A stretch of DNA of 43,535 bases, from NCBI GenBank assembly GCA_947589435.1, contig CANQBI010000012.1, positions 1 to 43,535 of the forward strand, read 5' to 3'. Made by a program: the position numbers and the translations under genes. The notes beneath the pieces were generated by a model. That model was given only the letters and a program-made list of their open reading frames with translations. It was not told the origin of the DNA and ran no database searches. Below, in pieces: positions 1 to 23,881 of this stretch; the first letter of the stretch is position 1, and every line of letters begins with the position of its first letter. This DNA comes from an uncultured Bacilli bacterium. GTDB taxonomy: Bacteria > Bacillota_I > Bacilli_A > RF39 > UBA660.

Positions 1-80
1 TAAGGCTCATTTAAAAATGTTGGTTTTCCTACATAATTATATGGACCAAATATTACATTTTTATATTGACTTTAACATTA

Positions 81-561: not shown

Positions 562-590
562 ATTGACTAAGTCTCATATTTGAATTATAA
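562..590 (+). promoter_or_regulatory. Candidate sigma-A promoter before the truncated variable gene
   Basis: TTGACT and TATAAT are separated by 17 bases. The predicted transcription start (about 597) lies inside the open frame beginning at 580. Either translation starts further in, or this promoter does not serve an intact gene. Confidence 0.5.
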
Positions 591-1683
591 TTTATTTAAA
601 CCAAACAAATCCCAAATATTACAAGATATTAAAAGAGTAGATATATTTGAAAATAAAGATAAAGCATTATCTATAATGATTCAACAACCGGATTATACTT
701 ATAAAGAAGACACAAGTAGAACAGCATGGCCAAGCACAACAGAATATTTATATTCAGGGTCTAAATGTACAGATAAAGATGGAGTAGATATAGGAGATAC
801 ATCATCCTATATAAGTTTTGAAGAAAAAAGTCATACAGCTACAATTACAACAAAAAAGACAATATATTGTACATTATACTTTGCCAATGGGCGTCCAGCT
901 TTAGAAGTATTAAAAGCCACAACTGATAATACATATGCCGGAGGAGGAGAACATACAACAGCAGTAGAAGGATTATATAGATTTAAAGGAACATATAGTG
1001 AAGTAAAGAATAACTATATATGTTTAGGAGCAGATGAAAATCCCGAAAAATGCAAAACGAACCCAGATAATATGTATCGAATAATCGGAGTAACCGACGG
1101 AAGTGAAGAAAGTACGCTAGGATTAAAAGCAGGAATGTTAAAGGTAATCAAGGCAACACCTTCAAATACAAGTCAAGCATGGTCCGCTTATGGTAATTAC
1201 GATTGGGATAGTACATATGCAACAGCAAGAACATATTTAAATAGTACATTCTACAATGGAAATACAATAGATTCAAGAATAAAACCATACATAGCAAATG
1301 TATATTGGTGGAAAGGAGATAACACGACAGAAAATGCAACATCAGAAACAACTACAAAAACAACAGGCCAATATCAAATAGGATTAATGTACAAAAGTGA
1401 TTATTACAATGTATGGACATACTCATCACCATATACAAATAATTGGCTTCATATCACACATGGATTAAGTAGTAGTTCAACAACATATAGTAGTACCTCC
1501 GAATGGACTATGACAAAGGATGGCCCCCGTATTGCATGGCGTGTGTTTTCGGACGGCCGTTTGGACAGTGAGAGTGTGACCGGTCCGTATGCGGTTCGCC
1601 CAGTCTTCTATCTAACATCCAATGTAGGATTAGTAGGATTAGGAAGTGAATCAAGTCCGTACACGATAACAACTATTAAATAA
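580..1683 (+). CDS. Variable C-type-lectin-like surface protein, DGR target family, 5' truncated
   Basis: This 367-residue open frame is homologous to the two other family members at 13517 and 22694. Shared blocks are ITTKKTIYCTLYF near residue 90, YRFKGTYSEVKNNYICLG, MYRIIGV, EWTM and the terminal AVRPVFYL. The others begin with a membrane anchor; this one starts at a TTG without a ribosome binding site, and an in-frame stop lies at 568-570. The anchor and the usual upstream partner gene are missing. The C-terminal stretch at about 1513-1593 is strikingly GC-rich compared with the rest of the gene and matches the variable repeat of a DGR target. I read it as a truncated, possibly silent, family member; expression from a downstream start cannot be excluded. 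The lectin-like fold is inferred from DGR targets in general. Confidence 0.6.
   Translation: MNYNLFKPNKSQILQDIKRVDIFENKDKALSIMIQQPDYTYKEDTSRTAWPSTTEYLYSGSKCTDKDGVDIGDTSSYISFEEKSHTATITTKKTIYCTLYFANGRPALEVLKATTDNTYAGGGEHTTAVEGLYRFKGTYSEVKNNYICLGADENPEKCKTNPDNMYRIIGVTDGSEESTLGLKAGMLKVIKATPSNTSQAWSAYGNYDWDSTYATARTYLNSTFYNGNTIDSRIKPYIANVYWWKGDNTTENATSETTTKTTGQYQIGLMYKSDYYNVWTYSSPYTNNWLHITHGLSSSSTTYSSTSEWTMTKDGPRIAWRVFSDGRLDSESVTGPYAVRPVFYLTSNVGLVGLGSESSPYTITTIK
1513..1593 (+). other. DGR-type variable region (copy 1)
   Basis: The region between the conserved codons for EWTM and VRPVFYL has few adenines and high GC in an otherwise adenine-rich gene. Aligned codon by codon with 14570-14662, most differences fall at codon positions 1 and 2 while T, C or G at position 3 is kept. 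That is expected when AAT/AAC/AAG codons of a template are mutated at adenines. The flank gttcgcccagtcttctatct (1594-1613) is identical in both genes and may contain the initiation-of-mutagenic-homing site. Confidence 0.65.
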
Positions 1684-3394: not shown

Positions 3395-3526
3395 GGCAGT
3401 GTAAATGGCAGTGTATATTTTAAAGAAAAAAACATCAAAACCCCTAATATATGGACATTTTAATGACATTATAGTTTTTATAAAATCATATTTGGCAGTG
3501 TAAATGGCAGTGTATTTGGCAGTGTA
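3395..3526. repeat. Five copies of GGCAGTGTA in 12-base register
   Basis: GGCAGTGTA starts at 3395, 3407, 3494, 3506 and 3518; within each cluster the period is exactly 12. Related TGACYCCAAAAAA elements occur at about 3358, 3371 and 3541. The repeats could be iterons bound by the neighbouring AlbA_2 protein. In one frame they read GSVNGSVxGSVN, which resembles the repetitive linker many AlbA_2 proteins carry before their winged helix, so they may be debris of such a gene. The 3293-3580 gap holds nothing else I can identify. Confidence 0.5.
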
Positions 3527-12467: not shown

Positions 12468-12489
12468 TAAAACATGGATTTATTTAAAA

Positions 12490-12517
12490 TAAGATGTTTC
12501 ATTTTGAAGCATCTTTT
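12490..12517 (+). terminator. Intrinsic terminator after the CsoR-like gene
   Basis: The stem aagatg-tttca / tgaag-catctt with a T-rich tail. Confidence 0.75.
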
Positions 12518-12539
12518 ACATTTGTAAAAAAACTTGATA

Positions 12540-12568
12540 TTGACTAACTAAAATAAATATTATATTAT
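12540..12568 (+). promoter_or_regulatory. Sigma-A promoter of surface cassette 2
   Basis: TTGACT and TATTAT are 17 bases apart. The predicted start near 12575 gives a leader of about 105 bases that contains the 17-base motif shared with cassette 3. Confidence 0.65.
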
Positions 12569-12614
12569 TTAAATGTAAAGTAAAAAAGAATATTATTTTT
12601 ATTTGTATTAAGTA

Positions 12615-12631
12615 TTCGGTATTTACAACAT
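12615..12631 (+). repeat. Leader motif shared by surface cassettes (copy 1)
   Basis: ttcggtatttacaacat here and ttcggtattagcaacat at 22004-22020 differ at two positions. Both lie in the leader of a two-gene surface cassette, 49 and 17 bases before the start codon. It may be a regulator or RNA-binding site, or a trace of cassette duplication. Confidence 0.45.
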
Positions 12632-12679
12632 TTGTATAAAATTAATATAAATCATAAATAATAAAAAAGAGGAAAGAGT

Positions 12680-13502
12680 ATGAAGAAGAATAGAAAAAAC
12701 TTAGTACTATATGTAACAATACTTACATTAGCAGTTTTAATAAGTAGCATCGGGGGGGGGTTATTGTAGCACCCTAACATCTTTAGTATTCATACCATTT
12801 AATAATTTAAAAGATAAACTTTATAATATAAAAAATAAAATAATAAATTTTAAATATAAACGAGAAATATTATATATAGGTCTCGGTCTTTTTGTTGTGT
12901 TTTTATTTAATTTAATAACAGGAACCCATGCTTTTTATAATTATAACAGTGAATGGATACCAATATTTACAGGTAAAGTAGGAAACTTTAGTGGTAAGGG
13001 AGATACTTCTCCTTTAACTGATAGAACAACAGATGTTAATTTACTTTATTATGTTCAAAACTTAACTAATCCTAAAGAATATGTTGTTTCAAGTAATAAA
13101 CCAGTATGGACTATGGGATATAAATTAGATGAAGAAAAGAGTAATTGTATTCCAACAAGTGCAAAATACTCAGATTATTCTATACAAGAAGATGGAACAG
13201 TTACATTTAGTGCCATCCTTTCAAAACCAAGTCAAGTAGTATGTCGAATATATTATAGTCTAGTTGGAGCAGATAATGATGTAGTTATATATGCCTTACA
13301 AGAAAATACAAATGGTGGAGTAACATTCGAAGATAAGAAATATGATGTTGTAAGTACAATGCCTATAAGTGGATATACATATTATAAAGCAACTTGTTCA
13401 AATAGTACTTCTGCTACTGATATAGGCTATACAACATCAACAGGATTTAAAGTAACAACCAGTGGACCAAATATATGTAATGCTTATTTTAAGAAAAGTT
13501 AA
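12680..13502 (+). CDS. Phase-variable membrane-anchored surface protein, OFF in this sequence
   Basis: Translation starts at ATG 12680 behind agaggaaag and gives an N-terminal membrane segment (LVLYVTILTLAVLISSI), then runs into nine G (12752-12760) and stops at TAG 12767. With eight G the frame continues without a stop through 12762-13502. The joined protein has a second membrane segment (ILYIGLGLFVVFLFNLI) and then the same extracellular start as the homologue at 22037: THAFYNYN and PIFTGKVGNF against THAYYNYE and PIFTGKVGDF. A poly-G tract at the exact join is the signature of slipped-strand phase variation. The partner gene follows after 14 bases with its own ribosome binding site. Function unknown; probably surface exposed. 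A sequencing error in the homopolymer is the main alternative. Confidence 0.75.
12752..12760 (+). repeat. G9 homopolymer tract (phase-variation switch)
   Basis: Nine consecutive G in a region of under 30% GC. Lengths of 8 or 11 would restore the full frame of the gene at 12680; 9 and 10 give early stops or a wrong frame. Confidence 0.75.
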
Positions 13503-13516
13503 GGAGGGAATAATAT

Positions 13517-14743
13517 ATGAGAAAGAAAATAGATATAATAATATTTTTATCAGTAGTAATAATTGGAATAATAATTAGCTACAATAACAACATAAAAAAT
13601 AATAATGAAGTAAAAGAATTAACCGAAATAAATGTTAATGAACTTAAAGATAATAAGAACTTAGCCATAATGGTTAAGGGAACTAGTGAAGAAGAATATA
13701 CTCAAATGGAAAGTAGAGATTCATGGCCAGAATATCCAAAATATATTTATATCAAAGCAGAATGTGACGATGGCAACGGTTCAAAATTAGTAGGAACCAA
13801 TGTCATAAATTATGATGAAAAAACAAATAAACTAACAATGACAACCAAAACAACATTGTATTGTACACTATACTTTGCTGAACCAGGAGATGCCTATAGT
13901 CTAATAGTAAAACAAGGAGGAGATACATTTAAACAAGCAGAGAATGATAATACAATGCATAGATTTATAGGAACATATGAAGAAGTATTAAATAACTATA
14001 TATGTTTTGGAACAACAAATCAAGGAGATTGTGTACAAAATCCAGACGAATACATGTATCGAATAATCGGAGTAGTAACAGGGGAGAATGATTTAAATTT
14101 AAAAGTGGGACAAATAAAAGTAATAAAAGCAACGTCAATAAAGGGAGATGATGGTAACGTAAAAACCATGAAATGGGCAAGCAGTTCAAATTCAAGTTAT
14201 TATAATTTCACATGGGATTATTCGGATTCAACTTCCGATAAAGGCGCAACATTAAGATACTATTTAAATAATGACTTTTATAATGATTTACAGGAACCAT
14301 GGAAAAGTAAAATAACAACACAACAATGGTATAAAGGAGACGATACAGCTGCAAATTCAGCAACAGGGATAACAAATGAAAGAACATCCATAACAAACGA
14401 CACAAGCAATCCAAATGGTTATCCAATAGGGTTAATGTATGCAAGTGATTATTACAATTCATGGACATATGTAGGAAGTAGTCCATATAGTACAGATAGT
14501 TGGTTAAATATATGCCATGGATATAAAACAGGTTCATCATCATGTAGTAATCAAGCCGAATGGACCATGACTAGGTTTGGCTACTCTTATGGCAATATAC
14601 TTGCGTGGTATGTGGGTACGAACGGCGGCTTGGGCGGTCCGGCTCTAGACAGCCCGCATACGGTTCGCCCAGTCTTCTATCTAGCATCCAATGTAAAATT
14701 AACGGGTCAAGGAAATGATATAGAGCCATTTATAATAAGTTAG
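13517..14743 (+). CDS. Variable C-type-lectin-like surface protein, DGR target, cassette 2
   Basis: A 408-residue protein with an N-terminal membrane anchor (IIIFLSVVIIGIIISY, about 6-21) and an extracellular body. It shares MTTKTTLYCTLYF, HRFIGTYEEVLNNYICFG, YMYRIIGVV and the C-terminal EWTMT...VRPVFYL with the genes at 580 and 22694. The last 60 residues include a GC-rich variable region (14570-14662) flanked by sequence identical to the gene at 580. DGR targets place such variation in the ligand-binding face of a C-type-lectin fold. AAGGAGG precedes the ATG. It is co-transcribed with the phase-variable gene upstream and so may be switched with it. The ligand is unknown. Confidence 0.75.
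   Translation: MRKKIDIIIFLSVVIIGIIISYNNNIKNNNEVKELTEINVNELKDNKNLAIMVKGTSEEEYTQMESRDSWPEYPKYIYIKAECDDGNGSKLVGTNVINYDEKTNKLTMTTKTTLYCTLYFAEPGDAYSLIVKQGGDTFKQAENDNTMHRFIGTYEEVLNNYICFGTTNQGDCVQNPDEYMYRIIGVVTGENDLNLKVGQIKVIKATSIKGDDGNVKTMKWASSSNSSYYNFTWDYSDSTSDKGATLRYYLNNDFYNDLQEPWKSKITTQQWYKGDDTAANSATGITNERTSITNDTSNPNGYPIGLMYASDYYNSWTYVGSSPYSTDSWLNICHGYKTGSSSCSNQAEWTMTRFGYSYGNILAWYVGTNGGLGGPALDSPHTVRPVFYLASNVKLTGQGNDIEPFIIS
14570..14662 (+). other. DGR-type variable region (copy 2)
   Basis: A GC-rich stretch between EWTM and VRPVFYL codons. Against 1513-1593, codon pairs such as CGT/TAT, TTT/GGT, GAC/AAC, GAG/CCG, AGT/GCT and GCG/ACG differ only at positions where a template adenine would explain both. 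Two third-position T/C differences do not fit, so the two genes may have used different templates. This copy has about four extra codons near its 5' end. Confidence 0.65.
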
Positions 14744-20485: not shown

Positions 20486-20625
20486 GTAAATGTTTCTCGC
20501 TTCTAGGTGGCTAGCGAGTAATAAATAATCCTAGTCGACAATGTTTCTCGCTTCCGGGTGGCTAGCGAGTAATAAGTAATCCCGGCGGAAAATTTAAACC
20601 TTCTATCTTTGTATAGAGATTTTTA
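20486..20625 (+). ncRNA. Type III (CptI-like) antitoxin RNA, upstream array
   Basis: Two tandem repeats of about 51 nt (20490-20540, 20541-20590) and an intrinsic terminator. Each repeat forms an H-type pseudoknot. In repeat A the stem is CTCGC (20496-20500) with GCGAG (20514-20518), and loop CTAGG (20503-20507) pairs with CCTAG (20530-20534). In repeat B the same stem is at 20547-20551/20565-20569, and loop CCGGG (20554-20558) pairs with CCCGG (20581-20585). The pseudoknot pairs change together. The loop is two bases longer than in array 2, so this RNA may be a diverged or orphan antitoxin. It has its own promoter and no toxin gene of its own. Confidence 0.75.
20601..20624 (+). terminator. 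Terminator of antitoxin array 1
   Basis: A six-base stem (ttctat with atagag) and attttt, with additional A/T pairing outside. Confidence 0.65.
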
Positions 20626-20673
20626 AATGTTTACTTAAAAATAATTTGCATATACTATAAAAGGTATACTATC

Positions 20674-20702
20674 TTGATTTTTTGCCTTATTTATTGTATA
20701 CT
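20674..20702 (+). promoter_or_regulatory. Promoter of antitoxin array 2 and the toxin
   Basis: TTGATT and TATACT are 17 bases apart. An inverted TATAC/GTATA pair lies just upstream at about 20651-20668 and could be an operator. Confidence 0.65.
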
Positions 20703-20708
20703 ATAAGT

Positions 20709-20873
20709 ACATTTTAAATAAATGTGCATTATGTACATGTTAGCCGCTCTTGGATGGTGCGGGATACAAATTATTCCAATCGCGAAATGTTAATCGCTCC
20801 CGGATGGTGCGAGTAATAAATTATTCCGGAGGAAAATGTATGGAAAACTCTATTTTTGATAGAGTTTTCTTTT
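20709..20873 (+). ncRNA. Type III (CptI-like) antitoxin RNA directly upstream of the toxin
   Basis: Two repeats of 49-50 nt (20737-20786, 20787-20835) plus the first bases of a third (aatgta). Repeat C: stem CCGC (20744-20747) with GCGG (20759-20762), loop TTGGA (20750-20754) with TCCAA (20775-20779). Repeat D: stem TCGC (20794-20797) with GCGA (20809-20812), loop CCGGA (20800-20804) with TCCGG (20825-20829). In known type III systems the toxin cuts the precursor into single pseudoknots that wrap and inhibit it. The following terminator would let only part of the transcripts reach the toxin, setting the RNA-to-toxin ratio. Confidence 0.88.
20843..20873 (+). terminator. Attenuating terminator between antitoxin RNA and toxin
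   Basis: A perfect 10-base stem (gaaaactcta with tagagttttc), a 7-base loop and a T-run. Such a terminator between array and toxin is a standard feature of type III loci. Confidence 0.9.
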
Positions 20874-20908: not shown

Positions 20909-21391
20909 ATGAAAGTTCAAACTGGTTATTTATATCATATAAAAGATGAATTTTTTGATAAAATAAATGATAAAGGATTAATGATAAATCACGAAAAAGG
21001 TCATGCAAGACCTACATATTTTACTATAAAAGATAAAAATATATTGTGGTTTATTCCGTTAAGTAGTAAAGTTGAAAAATATAAACCAATAATAGAACAA
21101 AAGATAAAAAAATATGGTGTTTGTAAAACTATAATGATTAGCGAAATTGCTAATCAAGAGTCAGTTATTTTATTACAAAATGCTTTTCCAACATTAGAAA
21201 AATATATTGACCACGTTCATATTGTAAATGGCAAGCCAGTAAAGGTAATTAATAGTTTAAAAAATGAAATATTGGATAATTTCAAATATTTATTAGCTTT
21301 GAAAACTGAAGGAATTAACTTGTTTTTTCCGGATATTGATAAAATAAAAGAGCAAATGTTAGAAGAATTAAAACAAGGATGTAAGAAATAA
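20909..21391 (+). CDS. Type III toxin endoribonuclease, CptN family
   Basis: A 160-residue protein with the ToxN/CptN small beta-barrel RNase pattern. The sequence resembles CptN proteins of gut Bacillota as I know them: GYLYHIKDEFFDKINDKGLM, an NHEKGHARPTYF block, ILWFIPLSSKVEKYKPII, QNAFPTLEKYIDHVH and a closing INLFFPDIDKI helix. These toxins cut mRNA and their own antitoxin precursor, and are held inactive in a protein-RNA assembly. AAAGGAGG before the ATG gives strong translation. The location behind a pseudoknot array and terminator confirms the family better than the protein alone. Likely roles are plasmid or island stabilisation and abortive infection of phages. Confidence 0.88.
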   Translation: MKVQTGYLYHIKDEFFDKINDKGLMINHEKGHARPTYFTIKDKNILWFIPLSSKVEKYKPIIEQKIKKYGVCKTIMISEIANQESVILLQNAFPTLEKYIDHVHIVNGKPVKVINSLKNEILDNFKYLLALKTEGINLFFPDIDKIKEQMLEELKQGCKK

Positions 21392-22036: not shown

Positions 22037-22675
22037 GTGATAAAGAAATTAGATAGTAAAAATTTAAAAGTAATAGTTTTGTCTTTGGGAGTAATTCTCT
22101 TAATATCTTTATTATGCTTAGTTCTTAAAGATACCCATGCCTATTATAATTATGAAATGGCACCAGTACCTATATTTACTGGAAAAGTTGGAGATTTTGT
22201 TGGAGGTAAACTTGAACCAAGTCCCTATGAGGGTGATGCTGATATAAGTACTATAGTATACGCTAATGAAGGAGAAGGCTATAGAATAATAGATACTGTA
22301 CCAGTATTTGGATTTACTTTAAATGAAAAGAAGACTAAATGTAAACCAGAATCTCTTCCATTTAGTGATATAGATATAACAGATGGAACAATAACTTATG
22401 ATGTAACTGAAACTACCCCAAATCAAATATCATGTTATATAGTTTATGATTTAACTTCTGATGTAGTTGTATATGCATATAAACAAGATTCAAGTGGAAC
22501 AAAAACATATAATGATAAAACATATACTTTAGTTGGAGATATACCAACTAATTATAAGTATGTAGGATTTACTTGTACAGATAAAGGAACAGAAATAAGT
22601 TATAATGCTTCAACAGGAATAAGTTTTACGACTGATAAACCAAATATTTGTTATGTGTATTTTGATGTTCAATAA
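22037..22675 (+). CDS. Membrane-anchored surface protein, cassette partner (intact)
   Basis: A 212-residue protein starting at GTG with AAGGAG seven bases before it. One N-terminal membrane segment (VIVLSLGVILLISLLCLVL) is followed by DTHAYYNYEMAPVPIFTGKVGDF and two beta-rich extracellular domains with paired cysteines (TKCKPE/ISCYIV and GFTCTD/NICYVYF). The repeating YVGFTCTDKG...FTTDKPNICYVYF unit also resembles the CTDxxG...YCTLYF unit near the start of the partner gene, so both may share a small repeated fold. It is the intact counterpart of the phase-switched gene at 12680, but has no homopolymer tract. Function unknown. Confidence 0.75.
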   Translation: MIKKLDSKNLKVIVLSLGVILLISLLCLVLKDTHAYYNYEMAPVPIFTGKVGDFVGGKLEPSPYEGDADISTIVYANEGEGYRIIDTVPVFGFTLNEKKTKCKPESLPFSDIDITDGTITYDVTETTPNQISCYIVYDLTSDVVVYAYKQDSSGTKTYNDKTYTLVGDIPTNYKYVGFTCTDKGTEISYNASTGISFTTDKPNICYVYFDVQ

Positions 22676-22693
22676 AGAAAGGAAGTATAGATT

Positions 22694-23881
22694 ATGAAAA
22701 AGAAATTAACCATATTATTAATATTATTTTTAATAATAAGTGAAATAATAACCTTAAGTTTAATATTTAAAAAGGAAGATAATACAATATTAAAAGATAT
22801 AGAAATAACCAATAATTTTAATAATAAAAAACAAATGATATCTATTAAAGTTGAAAATGATGATGATTATGAATATCATGATTATGAAGATAAAACTAAA
22901 TGGCCCGATAAAACTAAGTATACATATGCAGGCTCATTATGTACCGACTGGGGAGGAAATACAATAGCGGATAATATAATTAAATTTAATGAGGTTACAT
23001 ATGAAGTAACAATAACAACTAAAAAAACAGCATATTGCACCTTATATTTTACTAAAGGAAAGCCTGCCAAAAAAGTGTTAGAAGATAAAGGTGGAAGTAA
23101 ATTCAACTCAGCAAATGCAGTCTTTGGTTTATATAGGTTCAAAGGAACCCAAAGTGATGTTTCAAGTCATTATTTAAATAACTTTATATGTTTTGGAACA
23201 ACAGATTTAGCAACTTGTACAGGTAATAAGCAAACATATATGTATAGAATAATAGGGATAACAGATAATTCTGCTGCAAATACAACAGTAGAATTAGAAG
23301 CGAATCAGTTAAAAATAATCAGAGCTTTTCCTTTTGGAAATGGCCACGTATGGCATACAAATAGTAGGCAAAACGTTACATGGGATAATGTCGATATTCA
23401 GATATATTTAAACGATTCTTTTATAAGTACTGATAAAGCAAAATGGATAAATGGAGATTTCTGGGAAGGAATAATAGATGAACCGTATTGGTACATAGGT
23501 GATAATTCAAAATATCAAAATGCTACATCTGAATCAGTAAAATCAACGGATATTCATAAAGTTGGATTAATATATATAAGCGATTATGTAAATGCAGGAA
23601 CCACTGATGTAACAAACTGGTTATTTATAGGTAATGGAATGTCTGGAAGTTCACTGATACAAGAATGGACTATGTCACGATATTATGGCTTAAATGAAGC
23701 TAATGAGGTTGGAGCAGTTTATTCAATTAATACTTCGGGGAAATTTAGTTGGGGATTAGATCCTGGAGCAGGTATAGGAACTAAAAATGCTGTTCGTCCA
23801 GTCTTCTATCTAAAATCCAATGTAACATTAGCGGGTGAAGGCACCGAAGCAAGTCCATTCATTATAACAAGTAAAAATTAG
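22694..23881 (+). CDS. C-type-lectin-like surface protein, cassette 3
   Basis: A 395-residue family member with an N-terminal membrane segment (LTILLILFLIISEIITLSLIF) and the shared blocks CTDWGG, ITTKKTAYCTLYF, GLYRFKGTQSDV, NNFICFGT, YMYRIIGIT, EWTMS and AVRPVFYLKSNV. AAAGGAAG precedes the ATG. Unlike the copies at 580 and 13517, the stretch between EWTMS and VRPVFYL (23678-23790) is adenine-rich and shows no GC rise, so it is either not a DGR target or has not been diversified recently. It is the second gene of its cassette and ends at a strong terminator. Confidence 0.75.
   Translation: MKKKLTILLILFLIISEIITLSLIFKKEDNTILKDIEITNNFNNKKQMISIKVENDDDYEYHDYEDKTKWPDKTKYTYAGSLCTDWGGNTIADNIIKFNEVTYEVTITTKKTAYCTLYFTKGKPAKKVLEDKGGSKFNSANAVFGLYRFKGTQSDVSSHYLNNFICFGTTDLATCTGNKQTYMYRIIGITDNSAANTTVELEANQLKIIRAFPFGNGHVWHTNSRQNVTWDNVDIQIYLNDSFISTDKAKWINGDFWEGIIDEPYWYIGDNSKYQNATSESVKSTDIHKVGLIYISDYVNAGTTDVTNWLFIGNGMSGSSLIQEWTMSRYYGLNEANEVGAVYSINTSGKFSWGLDPGAGIGTKNAVRPVFYLKSNVTLAGEGTEASPFIITSKN

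Follow-up and report, generated by a model that had tools for sequence, protein, structure and literature searches.

A lectin-like variable region in an uncultured gut Bacilli bacterium as a probable target of a DGR with genome-dispersed template units

Diversity-generating retroelements (DGRs) have so far been described mainly as compact loci. In that of Bordetella phage BPP-1 (avd-TR-brt, mtd), one template lies between avd and brt, there is one target, and a stem-loop follows the initiation of mutagenic homing (IMH) element of the latter (PMC3240598, PMC12875486); this stem-loop is helpful, albeit not strictly required (PMC12875486), and, therefore, characterises the BPP-1 type, not DGRs in general. 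Targets far from the reverse transcriptase (RT) are known from cyanobacteria (90 genes over 52 genomes) and from Thiohalocapsa PB-PSB1 (nine loci in four classes) (PMC7517822, PMC10907252). Several templates per DGR are reported for Stenotrophomonas SKA14 (two template repeats and six variable regions, or VRs; PMC6642488) and for zeta crAss-like phages (PMC12386605); the portions of these two reports available to us describe no genome-wide promoter-to-terminator template units of the kind considered here. Neither targets at a distance nor a small number of templates in a single DGR are, therefore, new to the literature. One DGR finder inspects only the 5 kb before and after the RT (PMC3521204), and the authors of a large survey note that it would miss remote targets (PMC8144416). 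In the literature that we searched, coverage of which was incomplete, we found little on several or orphan templates, and no account of template RNA genes that stand alone and are scattered over a genome.

The system described here resembles that of BPP-1 in its A-specific template-to-target copying, its DGR-type RT with an Avd-like partner, the distinction between the IMH of the target and an IMH*-like template end, the structured 3' spacer and the C-type-lectin target domain; it differs in having apparently separate template RNA genes, mostly far from the RT, in its many targets, and in that no conserved stem-loop was found. As in the cyanobacteria and PB-PSB1, targets lie far from the RT and are apparently diversified in trans, but here a genome of 1.44 Mb combines a single DGR-type RT with 13 templates and as many as 43 IMH sites. 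The Treponema denticola DGR likewise has several surface-protein targets in a host-associated bacterium, although each of its isolates is described by one template type, the several types per person deriving from metagenomes (PMC4891356). By every defining feature tested, except the BPP-1-type stem-loop, the present system is a DGR.

The stretch of DNA analysed, hereafter the window, is contig CANQBI010000012.1 (C12) of GCA_947589435.1, positions 1–43,535 of the forward strand; the genome is a MAG of a gut Bacilli bacterium in 62 contigs (1.44 Mb, 93% complete). An earlier note, made from the letters of the window, had flagged positions 14570–14662, which lie inside gene 2 of a two-gene cassette. 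The relevant features are as follows.

12680–13502, plus strand: gene 1 of the flagged cassette, membrane or secreted protein
12752–12760, plus strand: G9 homopolymer in gene 1, presumed slipped-strand phase-variation tract
13517–14743, plus strand: gene 2, the DGR target protein (408 aa), with a predicted N-terminal membrane anchor and a C-terminal C-type-lectin-like domain
13949–14740, plus strand: C-type-lectin-like domain, from a structure model
14573–14669, plus strand: VR, from alignment to template repeats
14662–14683, plus strand: IMH, GGTTCGCCCAGTCTTCTATCTA, encoding VRPVFYL
580–1683, plus strand: target gene of cassette 1, with VR and IMH (IMH at 1593–1614)
22037–23881, plus strand: cassette 3, genes 22037–22675 and 22694–23881 (IMH at 23791–23812)

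The flagged patch had been proposed to be a DGR target region, and this is upheld by the recurrence of the IMH, the template score and the adenine bias, all of which are above chance. The 22-nt element GGTTCGCCCAGTCTTCTATCTA is identical in copy 1, and the motif occurs at 33 sites in the genome with up to three mismatches, against none for a reversed control pattern. A looser, coding-aware pattern gives 43 sites, roughly half of which score poorly and look old or inactive. Aligned to the template set, the flagged patch scores 43, whereas 120 shuffles score 3.0 ± 3.3 with a maximum of 11. We conclude that positions 14573–14683 are a DGR VR plus IMH within the gene at 13517–14743. No conserved stem-loop was detected after the IMH, and five targets fold no better than shuffles. 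Elsewhere, two VR/IMH domains stand in tandem within one ORF (C3:53282/54140, C20:11806/12610 and L111 11760–13952). Additionally, a 76-nt sequence opens the window (1–76) and a reversed copy closes contig C13, forming a repeat at assembly breaks.

Profile and template-model searches of C12 found neither an RVT_1 match nor a template RNA, in agreement with the earlier observation that the window lacks both. Across the genome, the RVT_1 profile matched only two proteins, on contigs C13 and C17. The C13 protein (E 3.6e-18) is a DGR-type RT: it carries LPIGNMTSQ, and sequence comparison with solved structures gives as its best match 8ub7 ('Reverse transcriptase', E 3.6e-22), which we take to be the BPP-1 DGR RT. 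Its start is overlapped by a 128-aa ORF that serves as candidate Avd or equivalent, with matches to PF22296 (E 2.3e-6) and NF033474 (E 2.2e-8) that are both below the curated cut-offs. Both reading frames are unbroken, and two template repeats precede the RT. Since the RT, the Avd-like ORF and two templates are located on C13, the suggestion that the machinery resides elsewhere and would act in trans fits well. The C17 protein was rejected as the DGR enzyme, as it matches RTs of the retron III-A/Ec107 type; this gene (L033 1370–2341, minus strand; PADLOC Ec107-like E 5e-126, RT_III-A E 2e-106) has a 203-aa neighbour.

More than one template had been anticipated from third-position differences between copies, and a search with the template 3' end indeed located 13 units on eight contigs: C4, C6 (four), C7 (two), C11, C13 (two), C18, C28 and C45. 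A covariance model built on the 3' part recovered exactly the same 13, and none extra. Each unit has a TATAAT-like -10 hexamer ~7 nt before a conserved start, AGGTAATCTTGA, after which come the template, GCGGTTCGCC, a junction of 0–3 nt, a spacer, which is conserved, and finally an intrinsic terminator; hexamer, leader, spacer and terminator are kept in 13 of 13 units, and the predicted RNA is ~250–275 nt. The IMH*-like template end reads GGTTCGCC(N0-3)AGCCTTCTATAAC, as against GGTTCGCCCAGTCTTCTATCTA on the targets. The junction that follows GGTTCGCC varies among the 13 units in both length (0–3 nt) and sequence between nearly invariant flanks, and may mark the point at which the cDNA starts. 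In the consensus fold, the 5' leader forms a 10-bp helix with the 3' spacer, the spacer hairpin pairs the IMH*-like end, and the terminator forms a further hairpin. Standard pairs make up 99.5% of helix cells, and covariation collapses when the partners are slid. Two-sided changes affect the spacer-hairpin tip (columns 163–182), a small helix (213–225) and the two parts of the terminator stem, whereas the closing helix (1–10 with 202–211) and the base of the spacer hairpin show no two-sided variation, their support being conservation rather than covariation. An Rfam search with the two C13 units gave no match. Taken from promoter-like box to terminator, each unit looks like an RNA gene in its own right. 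The spacer RNA AGATAGAAGAC is perfectly complementary to GTCTTCTATCT of the target, their pairing being a candidate recognition step; template match shows no clear relation to intactness of the GTCTTCTATCT part (rho -0.23, p 0.15), whereas it does follow that of the copied GGTTCGCC (rho -0.69).

Two further features deserve mention. Tandem repeats at window positions 20489–20840 were considered as a hidden template and rejected, being neither VR-like nor recognised by the template model. Positions 20489–20840 and 20909–21391 hold two pairs of tandem ~50-nt RNA-like repeats and, after them, a 160-aa ORF that matches AbiQ weakly (E 4.5e-4) and has no Pfam match, an arrangement that looks like a type III toxin–antitoxin system. 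PDDEXK_2 (Rpn-like) nuclease genes adjoin 3 of the 13 template units (L034 8047–8793, minus strand; C6:4567–5271), with a similar ORF in L109, a contig of a relative; a link to the spread of templates is possible.

The relationship between templates and targets is dominated by adenine, as counted under an alignment scheme that does not favour A. Over 21 well-aligned VRs, template A is changed at 354 of 636 positions (55.7%) and the other bases at 219 of 1443 (~15%); thus, 62% of changes fall at template A, which makes up 31% of template bases. Within the templates, A occupies codon positions 1, 2 and 3 in 190, 196 and 3 of 423 cases, mostly as AAT and AAC. The flagged VR is best fitted by a C13 template, with 20 of 30 A changed against 10 of 66 other bases (p 1.8e-6), and copy 1 behaves similarly (20 of 31 against 16 of 66). 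In copy 3 (22694–23881), the IMH is kept, yet A is changed at 8 of 26 positions and other bases at 24 of 65; because adenine bias is absent despite the IMH, this is probably a relic or an inactive target. Individual VRs are best matched by different units: those of C44 and C1 by the C11 unit, C16 and C4 by a C6 unit, C8_9036 by the C45 unit, C9 by the C18 unit and C15 by a short C7 unit. The best pair, C44 with the C11 unit, has 18 of 21 mismatches at A. Over the set as a whole, therefore, templates and VRs differ mainly at adenines. The flagged VR itself has a perfect template match in none of the known units, and 20 of its 30 mismatches (67%) face A, the usual share in DGRs being 75% or more (PMC8144416); its exact template may be missing (the MAG is 93% complete), recombined or since changed.

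The full-length AlphaFold model of the gene 2 product had low confidence in the variable domain, which was therefore folded alone (pLDDT 79, pTM 0.84). This model matches many C-type lectin chains with Z 5–6 over residues 18–245, and 9qa6 (Thomasclavelia ramosa IgA peptidase, residues 37–303) with Z 14.7 over 193 residues. The VR corresponds to domain residues ~209–240, in the C-terminal part of the lectin-like fold, such that the modelled target lies in a C-type-lectin-type domain. An N-terminal hydrophobic stretch points to a membrane anchor and a surface role, and the protein would be a surface ligand binder.

ON/OFF switching of the same operon had also been suggested, and finds support in the G-tracts and in the ON and OFF lengths present among relatives. 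At G9, gene 1 of the flagged cassette is out of frame and stops after 29 codons; at G8 or G11 it would encode 273–274 aa. In the genome stretches around IMH sites, cassette genes contain eleven tracts of G9–G10, where base composition predicts ~0.2 G9 runs genome-wide. In ten of the eleven, two tract lengths give a long frame (G8 and G11 in nine tracts, G7 and G10 in the tenth); the remaining one is truncated at the end of its contig. In the C3 and C20 cassettes, the tract precedes the VR and shares one long frame with it. Between genomes and cassettes, lengths of G8 (G002), G9, G10 and G11 (G001) occur, the G8 and G11 of the relatives being in-frame. The tracts are thus coding homopolymers that switch frame and differ in natural length, as expected of slipped-strand variation, and they presumably slip in cells.

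The relatives named in GTDB are MAGs of uncultured Bacilli, recovered from 'Lapin' (rabbit) samples and from the rectum of a goat. The same system is present in G001 (~95–96% identical around the RT) and G002 (~93%); the model finds 12, 7, 6, 1 and 0 template units in G001–G005, respectively, some of them partial, and the IMH pattern occurs 23, 27, 15, 48 and 6 times. In L109, a VR gene, a template, a PDDEXK_2-like ORF and an RT share one contig, which makes a binning error unlikely. Three template pairs are 97.9–100% identical between this genome and G001, whereas C44 and its G001 counterpart are 93% identical upstream and 69% in the VR, with in-frame indels. Against G002, the flagged locus is 83% identical before the VR, 39% within it, 68% after it and 92% downstream; since the counterpart differs over the whole 3' end of the gene, gene shuffling adds variation besides that due to the DGR. 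In G001 (C32, ~3467–3474), the flagged 2.3-kb cassette (window 12472–14740) is missing as a whole, the junction falling exactly at the stop codon. At other loci, flanks 95–97% identical surround different cassette genes. Close relatives, therefore, differ in this region, stasis being one of two findings that the earlier note held would count against it, and targets change in two ways, by rewriting of the VR and by turnover of whole cassettes. A scan of 145 genomes of the family found a related DGR RT in 45, including this one, and a model-recognisable template RNA in only six others, with one or two copies each, several of these genomes having an RT nearby on the contig of the template; its filters were stricter, and these counts are lower bounds. 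Because sampled related genera usually have one template, the dispersed set looks derived in this lineage.

Several other accounts of these data must be weighed. The second finding named by the earlier note was a high GC content due to lateral transfer of the whole domain, for which the 56% GC of the flagged patch in a window of 27.5% is the obvious argument. However, the high GC is limited to the VR, the gene flanks being AT-rich, and the same GC, codons and motif are present in the templates; the VR is GC-rich because the templates are, with their AAC/AAT coding and A-to-N change. We regard this explanation as very improbable. A second possibility is that paralogous surface genes exchange sequence by ordinary gene conversion or recombination, the DGR no longer being active. 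It has more in its favour, as close relatives differ by the shuffling, loss or replacement of whole cassettes, and mismatches at bases other than A exceed those of single-template DGRs. Nevertheless, recombination would not place 62% of changes on the 31% of template bases that are A, nor confine A to codon positions 1 and 2, and the RT and Avd-like frames are intact; it is, in our judgement, quite unlikely to suffice.

A narrower doubt concerns the number of templates in use. In canonical DGRs the template adjoins the RT, a single copy is usual in the related genera sampled, and some remote units lie beside VR genes, as expected of duplicated blocks; perhaps only the two RT-adjacent templates are used, the eleven remote units being inert relics or hitchhikers of past duplications. 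Yet all 13 keep the -10 box, leader, spacer helices and covarying terminator, VRs fit individual remote templates best, down to private codons and lengths, and three units are conserved at 97.9–100% with G001. Inert remote units are accordingly an unlikely explanation, albeit the one among these rivals that we would least readily dismiss.

We, therefore, consider it very likely that the flagged VR and IMH are a target of a genome-dispersed DGR with one C13 RT, 13 free-standing templates and a G9 switch. At the level of sequence, the support comprises the components, the RNA structure, the adenine bias, static templates as opposed to variable targets, and the tract frames. The C13 RT, with its Avd-like partner, would use RNAs from the thirteen template genes, which are presumably transcribed and employed in trans, and would miscopy template A during reverse transcription; the cDNA, anchored by GCGGTTCGCC, would then replace the 3' portion of genes for surface proteins wherever an IMH site occurs in the genome, varying the lectin-like face of the flagged protein, whereas the G9 tract in the preceding gene would turn the cassette ON or OFF. 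The sequence evidence suggests that the DGR is active at present. The templates appear to supply sequence for some twenty to forty targets in surface proteins, a subset of which also has an ON/OFF switch. On a broader view, which we consider probable, this is a one-enzyme network, in which template RNA genes, each equipped with a promoter and a terminator, serve dozens of surface genes in trans, targets are multi-template mosaics, and G-tracts choose the cassette displayed.

Here the template has seemingly become a separate, multiplied RNA gene, and consequently the numbers of writable sequences and of writable sites would no longer be tied to the RT locus. With their conserved flanks, the 13 natural templates indicate which parts of the RNA the enzyme needs, and they offer a natural design for multi-template targeted mutagenesis. 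For the organism, the arrangement suggests that a gut bacterium with a small genome is under strong pressure to change its surface; if the network is as proposed, it would amount to a bacterial, layered surface repertoire.
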